This document shows positions 9,332 through 24,913 of a DNA stretch of 64,000 nucleotides, in pieces. Source of the stretch: Chromatiales bacterium (GTDB taxonomy: Bacteria; Pseudomonadota; Gammaproteobacteria; Steroidobacterales; GCA-2729495). The notes below the pieces were generated by a model, which searched no databases, was not told where the DNA came from, and was given only the letters and a program-made list of their open reading frames with translations. A program made the position numbers and the translations under genes. The stretch spans positions 1-64,000 of the forward strand of contig NZCC01000081.1 of assembly GCA_002688175.1 (NCBI GenBank), read 5' to 3'. Position 1 is the first letter of the stretch; the number at the start of each line of letters is the position of its first letter.

Positions 9332-10129
9332 GTGAAACCGTTATTAATAGCGCTGGGTTTGGCCGTGTCTGGCCTTGCTCATGGTCAGGCGCTTACCGAT
9401 GCCGATGAGATAGTCGTGCAGGCTAATCTCGCTGCTTACTATGCCGGCGAGGACGGCAGGTCCGAGGCACGAATGATGATCATCGATGCACAGGGTCGTG
9501 AGCAGCGTCGCCAGTTCACGGTTTTGCGGCGCAGTCTTGAGGCCGGTGGCGATCAGCAATTCCTCGTGTCGTTCAGTCGACCTTCGGATGTGCGTGGAAC
9601 GGTATACTTGGTCAATAAAAAAGTTGGTCGTGATGATGACCGTTGGTTGTATCTGCCGGGTCTCGATCTCGTCAAACGTATTTCAGCCGGCGACGAACGT
9701 ACCAGCTTTGTCGGGGCGCATTATTTTTATGAAGATGTATCCGGGCGAGGTCCTGATGAAGATGCTCACGAACTCGTAGAAACCACAGATCAGTACTATG
9801 TGCTGAAGCATGTGCCAAAGAATCCTGCAGCGGTTGAATTTGTCAGCTACGTAACCTGGATCGATCGTAAAACTTTTCTGCCGATCCGGATTGAATATAC
9901 CAATGCCGGCGGCAAGGTATATCGCCGGGTAGAAGTGCTGGAAACGAAGGAAATCGACGGGCATCCGACCGTCGTCAGCAGCCGTACATCAGACCTGTCC
10001 AGTGGTGGTCATACAGACATGCAGTTTCGTTACATCGCCTATGACCTCGGCATGCCGACAGAGGTATTCACGGAGCGTTCGCTGCGTAATCCTCCCCGTC
10101 AGTGGCTCAAGCGGCCCGCCGCAGACTAA
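9332..10129 (+). CDS. LolA-like outer membrane lipoprotein-sorting protein
   Basis: This 265-residue periplasmic protein has a Sec signal peptide (residues 1-18, ending HGQA) and a LolA/LppX-like half-barrel fold judged from strand patterns such as RRQFTVLRRS, DRWLYLPGLDLVKRIS and FVGAHYFYEDVSGR. This family is almost always encoded next to an MMPL transporter and is thought to carry a lipid or hydrophobic cargo between membranes. The start is GTG at 9332, 3 bp after the RND stop, with a GAGG-like site inside the end of the RND gene. Its own stop lies 14 bp before the next ATG. Cargo unknown. Confidence 0.85.
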   Translation: MKPLLIALGLAVSGLAHGQALTDADEIVVQANLAAYYAGEDGRSEARMMIIDAQGREQRRQFTVLRRSLEAGGDQQFLVSFSRPSDVRGTVYLVNKKVGRDDDRWLYLPGLDLVKRISAGDERTSFVGAHYFYEDVSGRGPDEDAHELVETTDQYYVLKHVPKNPAAVEFVSYVTWIDRKTFLPIRIEYTNAGGKVYRRVEVLETKEIDGHPTVVSSRTSDLSSGGHTDMQFRYIAYDLGMPTEVFTERSLRNPPRQWLKRPAAD

Positions 10130-10143
10130 TTAGTTCGGTAGCG

Positions 10144-11418
10144 ATGACAGTCAGGCTACTTATCCTGTTGTTGTTCGTCAGTCCGTTTGCCGTTGCACAG
10201 GATGATGACTGGAATGACGACTGGGCCGACGACGAAAACACCGACCTGCAATGGACCGGATTTATCGAAGGGGCACTCGGCAGTCGCTGGGATACGGATC
10301 CTCAGACCGGCAGCAAAGGAACATTACGAGAAGGTCGCGCACGACTCGAAACCGATTGGGAGAATGACTCACTGGCCATCGGCTTCAAAGGCGATGCGCT
10401 CTACGATGACATCATCGAAGCGTTCGATCTGGAGATACGCGACCTGACGCTGGCCTTCTCGCCGGGAAAAAATCTGGATGTAAAGCTCGGCCGCCAGGTG
10501 CTGACCTGGGGAACAGGCGATTTGCTGTTCCTCAATGATTTGTTCGCGAAAGACTGGATCGGATTTTTTGCCGGCCGTGATACCGAGTATCTCAAAGCCC
10601 CGTCCAATTCTGCCCGTTTCAATTTATATACCAACCTGGTCAATATTGATTTTGTCTGGACACCCGTTTTTGAGCCGGATGAGTATCTTACCGGTGAACG
10701 TTTCTCATTTTTCTCGCCCCTGGCGGGCGCAAAAGTGGCACCGGACCCGCCGCTGTCTGCCGATGAGCCAAGTAGTAATGTCTCCAACGGTGAATTTGCC
10801 TTGCGCTTGTTCAGGACTTTCAACGGAACAGAATATGCTTTATATGGTTACCGGGGATTTTTTAAGCAGCCGCTTGGATTCAACGCTCAGCTGATACCGT
10901 ATTTCCCGGCCATGACAGCGCTCGGTGCCAGCCTGCGCAGGAGCCAGTGGTCCGGGCTGGTTAATGCGGAAGTGTCGTATTACTTTTCCAGGGATGACAG
11001 CAGCGGAACCGATCCGCTGATACCGAATGATCAGTTTCGCCTGCTGCTGGGTTTCGAGCGCGAAGCGGTTACTAATTTTAATATCGGTGTGCAGTATTAC
11101 CTTGAGTGGACCCAACGGCATGATGAGTTGCTTGAGCATTCACTCGCTCCGGAGTTTGAACCGGAAGAGTACCGTCATCTGTTTACGGCACGCCTGACGT
11201 ATCGGGCGATGATGGATAAGTTGATCGGCTCCCTGTTTGTTTTTTATTCGCCGAGTGACAAGGACTATTACCTGCGTCCGAAGTTAACTTATCGGTACAG
11301 TGATCAATGGACTGCAGAGGCTGGGGTCAGTTTGTTTGCGGGTGACGATGAGCATACTTTCTTTGGGCAACTGGACGATAACAGTAACACTTATGTAAGA
11401 GTTCGGTATCATTTTTGA
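10144..11418 (+). CDS. DUF1302-like outer membrane beta-barrel protein
   Basis: This 424-residue exported protein has a signal peptide of about 19 residues ending in VAQ, then a strongly acidic stretch (DDDWNDDWADDEN), then alternating beta-strand segments up to a final aromatic (RYHF). The motif GRQVLTWGTGDLLFLNDLF is typical of the DUF1302/alginate-export-like porins encoded with RND and LolA-like genes. It is likely the outer-membrane component or partner of the export unit. ATG 10144 is preferred to the GTG at 10102 because the signal peptide begins there. Two large hairpins follow the stop within 60-320 bp. Confidence 0.8.
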   Translation: MTVRLLILLLFVSPFAVAQDDDWNDDWADDENTDLQWTGFIEGALGSRWDTDPQTGSKGTLREGRARLETDWENDSLAIGFKGDALYDDIIEAFDLEIRDLTLAFSPGKNLDVKLGRQVLTWGTGDLLFLNDLFAKDWIGFFAGRDTEYLKAPSNSARFNLYTNLVNIDFVWTPVFEPDEYLTGERFSFFSPLAGAKVAPDPPLSADEPSSNVSNGEFALRLFRTFNGTEYALYGYRGFFKQPLGFNAQLIPYFPAMTALGASLRRSQWSGLVNAEVSYYFSRDDSSGTDPLIPNDQFRLLLGFEREAVTNFNIGVQYYLEWTQRHDELLEHSLAPEFEPEEYRHLFTARLTYRAMMDKLIGSLFVFYSPSDKDYYLRPKLTYRYSDQWTAEAGVSLFAGDDEHTFFGQLDDNSNTYVRVRYHF

Positions 11419-11473
11419 CTCTCATTAATATTGCTTTGTTCACTTTGGTTGAGATTTAACTCGTTCCCTGGCC

Positions 11474-11558
11474 GGCTTTTTGTGTCCGGTATACCCTTCC
11501 AAAACGCCGCGGGGCGCGGCTTTAAGGTTTTGGAAGGGTATACCGGACACAAAAAGCC
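11474..11558. repeat. Long perfect hairpin 1 with GC-rich loop
   Basis: Arms 11474-11505 and 11527-11558 are 32-bp perfect reverse complements. The 21-nt loop 11506-11526 can itself fold a 5-bp GCCGC/GCGGC stem and leaves TTTAAG unpaired. No T-run follows, so it is not an ordinary terminator. The loop is identical, in reverse complement, to that of hairpin 2. Confidence 0.92.
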
Positions 11559-11658
11559 TTGGACGTATCGGGGTCCGTTGTCAGGGAATTATGATTGAGG
11601 CGGCCCGGTTGGGTGGTATGAACACCTGGTATCCGTCTTCATTCCACAACGGTGTCGT

Positions 11659-11741
11659 GGCATTTTTCCGCCAGGTATTCTTCCGAAACCTTAAAGCCGC
11701 GCCCCGCGGCGTTTCGGAAGGATACCTGGCGGAAAAATGCC
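11659..11741. repeat. Long hairpin 2, inverted relative to hairpin 1
   Basis: Arms 11659-11689 and 11711-11741 are 31 bp with only one T/G non-Watson-Crick position. The loop 11690-11710 is the exact reverse complement of the loop of hairpin 1. The stem differs from hairpin 1 at many places yet stays self-complementary, while keeping shared blocks (TTTTT, GGTAT, CTTCC, AAAC). Confidence 0.92.
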
Positions 11742-11867
11742 TTCCAGGGAAAGATCAGCTTGCGGCGGAAGAACTTTAAGGATGCACCACAGCTAACTTT
11801 GTGCAGGAAACAAACATAACAGCCCTAAGCGCACCAATTGCATGGCAGGGCAGCAATAAAGAGCCCC

Positions 11868-12848
11868 CTATTTCCTGGCCGGCGGCCCAAACCCCTCCAC
11901 CGGCAGCGCCGTAATCTCATCAATCTCAGCCAGCTCAGCATCATCAGGCCGCCACAAACCAGCCTGCACATTCTGTTCGAGCTGTTGTTCCGACGTAACA
12001 CCGGCAATCACACTCGACACGGTCGGCTGACTCGCCAGCCACCCCATCGCCATATCCAGCAAAGAATGATCATAACGGTTGCAGACTTCTTTCAATGCTT
12101 CGACTTTATCGACTTTGTCAGCGGTCGCGAACGAACTGGCTGCAAAATTCTTCCACTTGTCCAGGCGCGTCCCTTCCGGTGCGGGTTCCCCTTTCTGGTA
12201 CTTGCCGGTTAACAAGCCGCTTTCCAACGGGAAATACGGCAAAATGCCCAGCCCGAATTTTTCACAGGCCGGTACCACTTCCTTTTCGATCTCGCGGGTC
12301 AACAGGCTGTAGCGGTTTTGAACCGAAACATACCCGTCAAGATTTGCCGACCGTGCGGTCCATTCGGCATCCGTGATTTGCCAGGCCGCATAATTTGAGC
12401 AGCCGATGTAACGAACTTTGCCCTGGTGGATCAAATCGTCCAGGGCTCGTAAGGTTTCTTCGATCGGTGTGTCGGTGTCGAAGCGGTGCATCTGATACAG
12501 ATCGATATAATCGGTTCCAAGTCGCGTCAGGCTCGCCTCTGCGGCCTGCATGATGTAGCGCCTTGATCCGCCCTGCATGTCGAAGCGTTCGGATGACATC
12601 GGTCCGGCAAATTTAGTCGCGATGATCACTTTCTGACGCCGATCGCCGAGCGCTTTACCTAGAAATTGTTCCGATTTGCCACGCTCGCCGTAGACATCAG
12701 CCGTATCGAACAGATTAACCCCAAGGTCTATGGCTTTATGGACAATACCGGCAGATTCTTTCTCGTCATTCATCATGCCGAAATTCATGCAGCCAAGACC
12801 GATAACGGACACCTTTAGCCCTGAACGGCCGAGATTCTTATATTCCAT
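11868..12848 (-). CDS. Aldo/keto reductase
   Basis: This 326-residue cytosolic NADPH-dependent (beta/alpha)8 oxidoreductase belongs to the AKR superfamily and reduces aldehydes or ketones. Catalytic tetrad residues are seen in order: Asp and Tyr in NLFDTADVYGERG, Lys in IATKFAG and His in LYQMHRFD. Cofactor-binding segments are GCSNYAAWQ and the late SSVIAGVTS. The start at ATG 12848 has a good GAGGG site 8 bp upstream; a longer frame to 12959 adds a tail with no homology and overlaps the def start. Downstream lie the paired hairpins. The substrate is unknown. Confidence 0.9.
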   Translation of the reverse strand: MEYKNLGRSGLKVSVIGLGCMNFGMMNDEKESAGIVHKAIDLGVNLFDTADVYGERGKSEQFLGKALGDRRQKVIIATKFAGPMSSERFDMQGGSRRYIMQAAEASLTRLGTDYIDLYQMHRFDTDTPIEETLRALDDLIHQGKVRYIGCSNYAAWQITDAEWTARSANLDGYVSVQNRYSLLTREIEKEVVPACEKFGLGILPYFPLESGLLTGKYQKGEPAPEGTRLDKWKNFAASSFATADKVDKVEALKEVCNRYDHSLLDMAMGWLASQPTVSSVIAGVTSEQQLEQNVQAGLWRPDDAELAEIDEITALPVEGFGPPARK

Positions 12849-12957
12849 TGTTTTTTCCCTCGGAGTGACAGAAGAATGGTGTTGATGTTCGCCTATTTTA
12901 GTCATTGGGTCATAAATTAATGACTCCGGCACCAAAACCCGGATATCCTTGCCAGTC

Positions 12958-13527
12958 ATGGCAATCAGACGTGTTATTCGAATGGGTCACCCGCTGCTGC
13001 GGCAGCCCGCGCAGGCTATTGAGCCTGGTGAGATTGGCAGTGAGAAACTTGGCCGGCTTATCGACGACATGGTCGATACGCTGCAGGATTACAGTGGTAT
13101 CGGTCTGGCCGCACCGCAAATTGCTGAACCGGTCAGGCTCGCCATCATCGAGATACCGGATGAATCGGCGCGCTACGATAATCTGGAGTCGGTGCCTTTG
13201 ATGGTGTTCATCAACCCGGTTATCGAGATTATTGATCCTGCTACTCACGGCTACTGGGAAGGTTGCCTGTCGGTACCCGGATTGCGGGGTTTTGTCGAGC
13301 GGCCGCAACATGTGAAGATCAGTTATACCTCCGTGCAGGGCGAAGCTCTGGAACTGGAGGTGCAGGGTTTTGCGGCGACAGTCTTTCAGCACGAGCTGGA
13401 CCATCTGGATGGAAAACTGTTTATTGACCGGATCACGGATACCCGGTTACTGGCGTTTGAGGCAGAGTACGAACGTTATTTATTACCGATGGAAGCAATT
13501 CATGACAGCGAAGGTGTTCGCCATTAA
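12958..13527 (+). CDS. def: Peptide deformylase
   Basis: This 189-residue metalloenzyme removes the N-formyl group from nascent proteins. All three signature motifs are intact: GIGLAAPQ (47-54), EGCLSVPG (101-108, metal ligand C103) and QHELDHLDG (144-152, ligands H145 and H149, catalytic E146). It is not next to fmt, unlike the housekeeping copy in most Proteobacteria, so it may be a second copy. ATG 12958 gives the usual MAIR start. The end overlaps the next gene's ATG by 26 bp, implying coupled translation with the lipoprotein. Confidence 0.94.
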   Translation: MAIRRVIRMGHPLLRQPAQAIEPGEIGSEKLGRLIDDMVDTLQDYSGIGLAAPQIAEPVRLAIIEIPDESARYDNLESVPLMVFINPVIEIIDPATHGYWEGCLSVPGLRGFVERPQHVKISYTSVQGEALELEVQGFAATVFQHELDHLDGKLFIDRITDTRLLAFEAEYERYLLPMEAIHDSEGVRH

Positions 13528-23308: not shown

Positions 23309-24010
23309 ATGAGATCTGTATTGTGTATTGCGCTATTCCTGGTGTTGATGTCGCTGGCTGTGCCTGCTTATACCGCTAATGACGCGTTACCGGATCCGAC
23401 CTCAACAGATTTTTGTCAGGCCGTGCAGAAAATCATGGCCAGCACCGATCGGGCTGGTGAGATTACCTTATTCACAGATATGCCCGAATACCGCCATTCC
23501 AAGCCCTCGGCTGATCCCCATAATATCTACCAGGTTGTCACCTACGCGGGTCAGCGACCGATCATGGTGTCGTGTAAGATCAAGGGCGCTGCTCACCTGC
23601 GCTCGGCCTATGGTGAGGATGCTGCCGGTGAGCAGCTGTATTGCCCGGAAATTGCCCGCCGCGTGAAAGCGCAGGCAATTGCTGACCTTCATCAGGAAAA
23701 TAATCCGGAGGCGGCGAAGACCCTTGCCGCATTCGTTATTGATGAGAATGAGCCCTTTATTACCGGCCGGGAGTACCTGGCGGATTTTCCGTTGAGTTAT
23801 ACGGGTGATGACGGGGCGGTCCATCTTAATACACCGGGGTTATTCCAGGACTACGATAGCTGGGTGACGTGGTTCCTGCCGGCCAATTATCAGGGTCAGG
23901 CCTATTGTCATATCGCAACCGCGGCCTATATGAAGGCAGTGGCAACAGGCGAGATTGAACCCGGTACCGTTATTACTACGGCTGATGATGCGCCGGTAAC
24001 ACCGCATTAG
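23309..24010 (+). CDS. Secreted protein of unknown function
   Basis: This 233-residue protein starts at ATG 23309 with a GGGGA site 5 bp upstream, inside a longer open frame. Signal peptide residues 1-23 end AYTA. The mature protein has four cysteines (DFCQAV, VSCKIK, LYCPEI, AYCHIA), which suggests two disulfide bonds. Local features are the acidic loop YGEDAAGEQ and a terminal TTADDAPVTPH. I do not recognise a family. It stands alone between convergently arranged genes. Confidence 0.65.
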   Translation: MRSVLCIALFLVLMSLAVPAYTANDALPDPTSTDFCQAVQKIMASTDRAGEITLFTDMPEYRHSKPSADPHNIYQVVTYAGQRPIMVSCKIKGAAHLRSAYGEDAAGEQLYCPEIARRVKAQAIADLHQENNPEAAKTLAAFVIDENEPFITGREYLADFPLSYTGDDGAVHLNTPGLFQDYDSWVTWFLPANYQGQAYCHIATAAYMKAVATGEIEPGTVITTADDAPVTPH

Positions 24011-24043
24011 TGTATTGGCCCGGGTGTTACCGGGCAGATGCAC

Positions 24044-24913
24044 TCAATTTGTTTCGATCAGTTCGATCCATTCACCGGCCGGGCCGACGGTGACGGCCGT
24101 ACGACGGCCGCCGTACGGTAGTCCGTCCAGAGTCTTTGGTGCCGCTCGCCAGTTGACGTCTAACGCATCAAGGTCCTCGACTTCGAACGTAACCATTGAC
24201 GTGCCGGGTGGCAGGTAACCGTTGGTTACCGGTCGAGCACTGGTGCTCGGCGGGTATTCATCCAGTTCAATCAGGAAGCGTTCTGAGATGGTGGCGACAG
24301 CCAGCGGGTAGGTCGTGTCTGCCGGCATCTTTTGCATGTTGGCTACGACGGTGATTTTGAATGGTGTCGCCTCGCTGACCCTCAGCCCCAGCTTGTTTGA
24401 ATAGTAATCGGCAAGTTCCGTCATTGACGGTCCGGACAGAACTGAAATAAAGACCCGGTCGACAATTGCGCTGAATTCAAAGTTCTGATTGTTGGTCAGG
24501 TAGAGCACCTCGTTGGCGGGTCCCAGCACCTGCATTGCACGCGGAGCATTGGGTGCCGGCCATAAGTCTTTTGGCGGCCCAATGAGGGTAAACGGCGAAC
24601 CGGCCAGTTGTTCGGCGAGTGTGTCCGGGTCTTTGACGAGAAGCTCGGTTGAGTTCCAGCCGTGTGTCGTCATCGCAGTGTGACCTTCGGTCGTCGGGTT
24701 CTCAACAAACCGCAGGTAAACTTTTTCATTGCTCGAAGGTTGCATGACAAGATATTTACTTCCGGTCATGTTTCCCGTATTCCAGATCTCGGTAGTAGCT
24801 GCACTCAATTCACCCTGATCAACGGCGGTATAACCCAGGTGATCATGATAGGCATCCTCAATTGAATTAAGGTTAAGCACGGAGATGGTTACGATGATGA
24901 TCGATTTAAGCAT
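24044..24913 (-). CDS. VOC-superfamily (glyoxalase-like) protein, two modules
   Basis: This 289-residue protein has two paired beta-alpha-beta-beta-beta modules. Module 1 starts with NLNSIEDAYHDHLGY and module 2 with MTELADYYSNKLGLRV, each followed by YL/FLIELDEYP-type strands, ending VTVGPAGEWIELIE. This is the vicinal oxygen chelate plan used by extradiol dioxygenases, glyoxalases and resistance proteins. The expected His/Glu metal ligands are only partly evident, so the activity is open. The N-terminus is somewhat hydrophobic (MLKSIIIVTISVLNLN) but it is the first beta strand rather than a signal. Confidence 0.7.
   Translation of the reverse strand: MLKSIIIVTISVLNLNSIEDAYHDHLGYTAVDQGELSAATTEIWNTGNMTGSKYLVMQPSSNEKVYLRFVENPTTEGHTAMTTHGWNSTELLVKDPDTLAEQLAGSPFTLIGPPKDLWPAPNAPRAMQVLGPANEVLYLTNNQNFEFSAIVDRVFISVLSGPSMTELADYYSNKLGLRVSEATPFKITVVANMQKMPADTTYPLAVATISERFLIELDEYPPSTSARPVTNGYLPPGTSMVTFEVEDLDALDVNWRAAPKTLDGLPYGGRRTAVTVGPAGEWIELIETN

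Follow-up and report, generated by a model that had tools for sequence, protein, structure and literature searches.

The NEMIS/Correia, ERIC and RUP repeats are elements of 70-300 bp that carry terminal inverted repeats, form strong RNA folds and adjoin genes. Integron attC sites are hairpins whose strand is marked by unpaired bases and whose imperfect stems, with extrahelical bases, occur in cassette arrays. Covariation on both sides of a stem is commonly read as a strong sign of functional RNA. REPINs and BIMEs are GTAG-tagged REP dimers mobilised by RAYTs (PMC3116915, PMC3733652), and CGTC-tagged REPs are reportedly devoid of a dedicated transposase (PMC3733652). The same source names NEMIS/Correia, ERIC and RUP as hairpin MITEs and describes tyrosine transposases flanked by long, partly self-complementary terminal inverted repeats (TIRs) that form repeat families. 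Some of these TIRYT-associated repeats are double palindromes (PMC3733652). Finally, according to two reports (PMC8604942, PMC8794818), template-switch mutagenesis at inverted repeats yields arm homogenisation and spacer inversion.

The window, i.e. the whole stretch of 64,000 nucleotides analysed, contains at 11464-11753 one element of ~290 bp, in which two long hairpins form an inverted dimer bounded by short inverted ends, TTTCCCTGG...CCAGGGAAA (Table 1). A sequence-only reading of this DNA had described two long hairpins with the same tip in opposite orientation and mirrored outer flanks; both descriptions were confirmed, down to the single T/G pair of the right stem and the inverted ends TTCCCTGG/CCAGGGAA. 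On each strand there is one occurrence of the 21-nt tip, GCCGCGGGGCGCGGCTTTAAG, against a chance expectation of 0.03. For a 301-nt stretch the folding energy is -181.6 kcal/mol (z = -15), far beyond shuffles, and the left hairpin alone reaches z = -11.6 against shuffles. Comparison of the hairpins to the Rfam covariance models produced no match at gathering score, the matches being restricted to sub-threshold microRNA hairpins. The two flanking ORFs form a convergent pair.

Table 1. Features of the element and its neighbours, in positions of the window.
Feature	Position	Strand	Description
Left neighbour ORF	10102-11418	+	438 aa, putative outer-membrane protein by look; points at element
Whole element	11464-11753		
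Left inverted end TTCCCTGGCC	11464-11473	+	Family consensus (RGKC)TTTCCCTGGnC
Outer end TTCCCTGG	11464-11471		
A-type hairpin	11474-11558	+	Perfect 32-bp stem
Left arms	11474-11505 / 11527-11558		32 nt each, complementarity 100%, loop 21 nt
A hairpin tip	11506-11526	+	Mini-stem GCCGC..GCGGC, unpaired TTTAAG on inner side
Spacer	11559-11658	+	100 bp, long subfamily (TTGGACrTATCG...GGTGTCG); no coding function recognised
B-type hairpin	11659-11741	-	31-bp stem including one T/G pair; tip of A in opposite orientation
Right arms	11659-11689 / 11711-11741		31 nt each, complementarity 97%, single T/G pair, loop 21 nt
B hairpin tip	11690-11710	-	Reverse complement of A tip; TTTAAG bulge on inner side
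Right inverted end CCAGGGAAAG	11744-11753	-	
Outer end CCAGGGAA	11744-11751		
Right neighbour ORF	11868-12959	-	363 aa, putative aldo/keto reductase by look; points at element

The element is a member of a repeat family. A DNA search of its own genome (G000: 2.6 Mb, 84 contigs, 81% complete) returned 87 matches. A covariance model was built from 30 hairpins; the genomes searched included those of three other species of the same genus, G001, G002 (78% complete) and G003, three of the four genus genomes being incomplete. Counted by hand in the covariance-model tables, the family numbers no fewer than 54 distinct hairpins in G000, spread over 41 places, at least 12 hairpins in G002 and ~18 in G003. 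The many intergenic copies anticipated from the window alone are thus present, and the opposite possibility raised with them, that only two copies exist, fell with the 41 places. An assembly artefact, also envisaged at that stage, is very unlikely, since the family is also present in the assemblies of two other species, and the G002 ortholog of the element is a decayed copy. In G001 the family is absent and the model matches are REP-type pairs, GTAGGAGCGGC or GTGGGAGCGGC; two loci of this sister species (L132 and L133) display REP-type inverted pairs, GTAGGAGCGGCTTTAGCCGCGA plus a GTGGGAGCGGC form. At the thresholds applied, the hairpin was not detected in the 36 other genomes of the bacterial family, where weak unrelated matches only were obtained, nor, under stricter filters, beyond the genus in an order-level sample (296 genomes) and a class-level sample (369 genomes); it is also absent from the plasmid, phage and viral contig collections searched. 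Weak model matches occurred in G017, G033, G019 and G001, and those inspected were unrelated hairpins or canonical REP pairs. Of the 16 matches from a loop-pattern scan of genome contigs, those belonging to G002 and G003 are real members; a hairpin scan revealed no long hairpin of this kind at the remaining ones, seven of which were also checked by eye. About 14 of the 84 contigs of G000 start or stop within a copy (contigs 5, 10, 19, 22, 27, 32, 54, 61, 70, 71, 74, 75, 83 and 84). The repeat therefore breaks the assembly, and the copy number in G000 is probably underestimated. The hairpin repeat is a previously undescribed, non-coding, genus-restricted family of mobile type.

The full unit displays the order end, hairpin A, spacer, hairpin B, end. 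The ends read TTTCCCTGGnC with a weaker outer RGKC, which is nearer RGGC on the A side and GGTC on the B side. Matches to the family end CTTTCCCTGGNCGG number 48 in G000, 17 in G002 and 15 in G003, compared to 5, 2 and 4 for the reversed control. Stem sequences are not the same in A (TTTTGTGTCC...) and B (TTTTTCCGTC...), and the copies of a short-spacer subfamily possess a B stem of their own. Of the 46 hairpins that could be scored for the position of the TTTAAG/CTTAAA bulge, 44 carry it on the inner arm, with 24 more beyond the scoring of the script. In G003 the copies have retained the ends and the mini-stem together with a similar bulge, many of their loops being ~52 nt long. The copies encode no protein and have no ORF of note. 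Three copies (L003, L005 and L016) are deletion derivatives that retain both ends. In one G003 copy (L209, first 430 bases of contig C51) the spacer is interrupted by another palindrome (AATTCGGGGACAGTTCACTTATCTC...). Immediately outside a G000 copy (L035, C26, ~23834-24080) the two flanks are inverted repeats of each other over 27 bp without a mismatch, which looks like an extension of the palindrome into unique sequence; inverted flanks were discarded as a family trait, this one not being general among copies. At another G000 locus (L201, C8:7119-7604) a putative rpsT reading frame lies between two inverted family ends, which are probably two relics. Two copies located 3.7 kb apart on contig 60 of G003 were considered as an autonomous element and rejected, as they enclose pilin-like and GGDEF/EAL-like ORFs.

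Several traits are shared with REPINs and BIMEs (PMC3116915, PMC3733652): the palindromes occur in multiple intergenic copies, as inverted dimers and singlets, are lineage-specific, have no coding capacity and lie near gene 3' ends and convergent pairs. The paired hairpins and numerous intergenic copies support the REP/REPIN-like mobile-type repeat suspected from the window. On the side of the differences, stems measure ~31 bp versus 6-13 bp, elements are ~230-290 bp long with half-units of ~115 nt in place of 20-40 bp units with a short stem, and neither a GTAG nor a CGTC tag is present; moreover, G-T stem pairs, frequent in REPs according to PMC3733652, are almost absent. The initial doubt that the motif is a standard REP or an attC site was right, the GTAG tag being missing and the 31-bp stems near-perfect. 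With attC sites the family shares unpaired bases that distinguish the strand of a hairpin, but its copies are scattered genome-wide between ordinary genes and no gene cassettes were seen.

A true REP/REPIN family mobilised by a resident RAYT would account for the inverted dimers and singlets, their intergenic location and the tag-like RGKC outside the end, and Y1 genes are present. Two such genes in G000 match the model for REP-associated tyrosine transposases, one scoring slightly over the cut-off and the other under it, and three more Y1 genes were found in G003. Nevertheless, no family hairpin was found in ~1.5 kb of flank on each side of these five genes, and the RAYT-type transposase that the sequence-only reading proposed to look for was sought beside the copies without any adjoining gene being found. 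Three of the five genes lie near other palindromes instead, GGTGTCTGACACC at L073 and L077 and GGGTCTGACCCC at L074. Together with the long stems and the missing GTAG tag, this makes a resident RAYT a very doubtful explanation, although an unseen one is possible given the incompleteness of G000 and G002. The two Y1/RAYT-type genes of G000 are located at L073 (C64) and L076 (C67), the former amid TTGGTGTCTGACACCAA palindromes, which seem to make up another repeat family in G000.

In organisation, the nearest relative described in the literature is found in the TIRs of tyrosine transposases. The TIRYT or 'TIRtron' TIR repeats (Di Nocera et al. 2013, PMC3733652) are likewise long, partly self-complementary, moderately abundant and often dimeric. 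They lie on both sides of a tyrosine transposase gene, and GGGGWSAS is common to several of them (PMC3733652), whereas the present family ends in TTTCCCTGG and has no linked tyrosine transposase, none of the five Y1 genes being flanked by it over ~1.5 kb.

Alternatively, the family could be a classical MITE belonging to an IS with a DDE transposase, in which the terminal inverted repeats are short and the hairpins are passengers. The inverted ends of ~9-20 bp, the size of ~230-290 bp, the lack of coding capacity and the deletion derivatives retaining both ends agree with this proposal, and the size, terminal inverted repeats, strong folds and gene-adjacent location are those of hairpin MITEs such as NEMIS/Correia, ERIC and RUP. 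These differ, however, from the two separate long hairpins with asymmetric tips observed here. A target-site duplication was sought in 15 two-ended copies at lengths 3-6 and 8-10 and offsets 0-9, and none was significant against shuffled pairings, although old copies may have lost theirs. The end tags of the A and B sides also differ, and the solo hairpins and inverted dimers look like REP/REPIN organisation. A DDE-type origin is judged unlikely. A point against the mobile-repeat reading itself is that no transposase gene bearing the family ends was found in the genus genomes, three of four being incomplete; the end matches inspected there for a parent IS were hairpin copies, relics or chance sites only.

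The copies are preferentially located between convergent genes. This placement was found for 23 of 37 scorable copies (longest-ORF rule, some orthologs being counted twice) and, in G000 alone, for 14 of 24 copies versus a background of 18% in the intergenic gaps of G002 contigs (p = 1.3e-5). The majority of the copies in G002 have an ortholog in G000, and the orthologous sites in G002 are mostly relics. Two sites (L002/L145 and L003/L154) look empty in the ortholog, their flanks being too diverged for exact junctions. No transposition event was caught among the copies compared, and since most G002 copies have an ortholog in G000, recent activity is not demonstrated; mobility and the type of enzyme are what we infer from the family as a whole.

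The covariation of the stems noticed in the window is real and extends to the family: 24 of 37 stem pairs have changed on both sides. Two-sided changes amount to 187 cells versus 60 in shuffles, a level reached by none of 500 shuffles, and one-sided cells with a standard pair number ~4. Complementarity of the arms within a hairpin is 98%, for a mean identity of 71% between the 5' arms of different copies, and G-T pairs occupy 4 of 910 stem cells. Among close copies (three differing positions at most), the 34 distinct change types divide into 20 that are mirrored on the opposite arm and 14 confined to a single arm; mismatches therefore arise and persist for a time, and homogenisation is not fast. 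Comparison of orthologs was informative as well. In the pair L008/L044, the single orthologous pair in which a tip is inverted with both copies intact, the A tip is inverted and one B-stem position differs on both arms. At L024/L138 and L014/L217 intact G000 dimers correspond to collapsed hybrids in G002, an orthologous collapse is also observed at L038/L139, and the window's own locus in G002 has lost its right half, its left hairpin pairing near the tip only. The hybrid hairpins were considered as partial arm-conversion tracts, but a simpler account is one deletion reaching from the first hairpin of a dimer into the second; they are consequently counted as evidence of decay and do not on their own prove arm copying.

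Pairing kept by selection, in a functional RNA or a bidirectional terminator or mRNA-stabilising element, would fit the strong bias of the copies to the 3' ends of convergent genes, the very stable folds and the pairing retained in 98% of cells. A similar bias is nevertheless expected of neutral insertion survivors, the terminator-type U tract sought after the stems was absent, G-U intermediates are almost missing and orthologous copies lose the hairpin or its pairing. Such a function appears quite improbable. The earlier proposal that compensatory change points to a function of the folded RNA or single-stranded DNA was likewise not upheld, in view of the 187 two-sided against ~4 one-sided cells, the scarcity of G-T pairs, the tip inversion and the decay. 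The near absence of G-U intermediates, the inverted tip and the decay of orthologs fit homogenisation of the arms at the DNA level better than RNA selection at each site, and the two-sided arm change and the tip inversion match the outcomes of template switching described in PMC8604942 and PMC8794818. As the origin of the covariation, homogenisation of the arms in the DNA is preferred to a conserved RNA function, without being proven; selection on pairing is less favoured.

The family is probably a non-autonomous, genus-restricted mobile repeat of MITE/REPIN-like type, served by an enzyme acting in trans and recognising single-stranded DNA, with arms maintained by DNA-level homogenisation; the mobility, the enzyme type and the homogenisation mechanism are the parts of this scheme that we infer. 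The unit would be an inverted dimer of two ~115-nt half-elements, in each of which an outer end RGKC-TTTCCCTGG is combined with a hairpin of ~31 bp whose tip is strand-asymmetric, with a mini-stem and a 6-nt TTTAAG bulge located nearly always on the inner arm. Past spread would have depended on a trans-acting enzyme most likely reading the folded single strand, and the architecture and the absence of target-site duplication suggest an enzyme of Y1/HUH type. Insertions would persist chiefly between convergent genes. Template switching at the palindrome, or repair of a folded intermediate, could then copy one arm onto the other and sometimes invert the tip, while copies would be destroyed by a deletion running from one hairpin to the other or by the disappearance of whole arms, leaving hybrid solo hairpins and end scars. 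In a more specific version, a miniature single-stranded DNA element mobilised by an HUH-type enzyme would move as a folded double hairpin, each round of replication or transposition copying an arm. We regard this version as rather unlikely; if true, the concerted evolution of the arms and the tip inversion would be products of the element's own mobilisation.

The family is a new, long-stem and genus-restricted variant of the REPIN/MITE-like mobile repeats, which it extends by a genus-specific class. It also constitutes a bacterial test case in which covariation is strong, yet orthologs decay and wobble intermediates are nearly missing, and is as such useful for telling mutational homogenisation of arms from selection.
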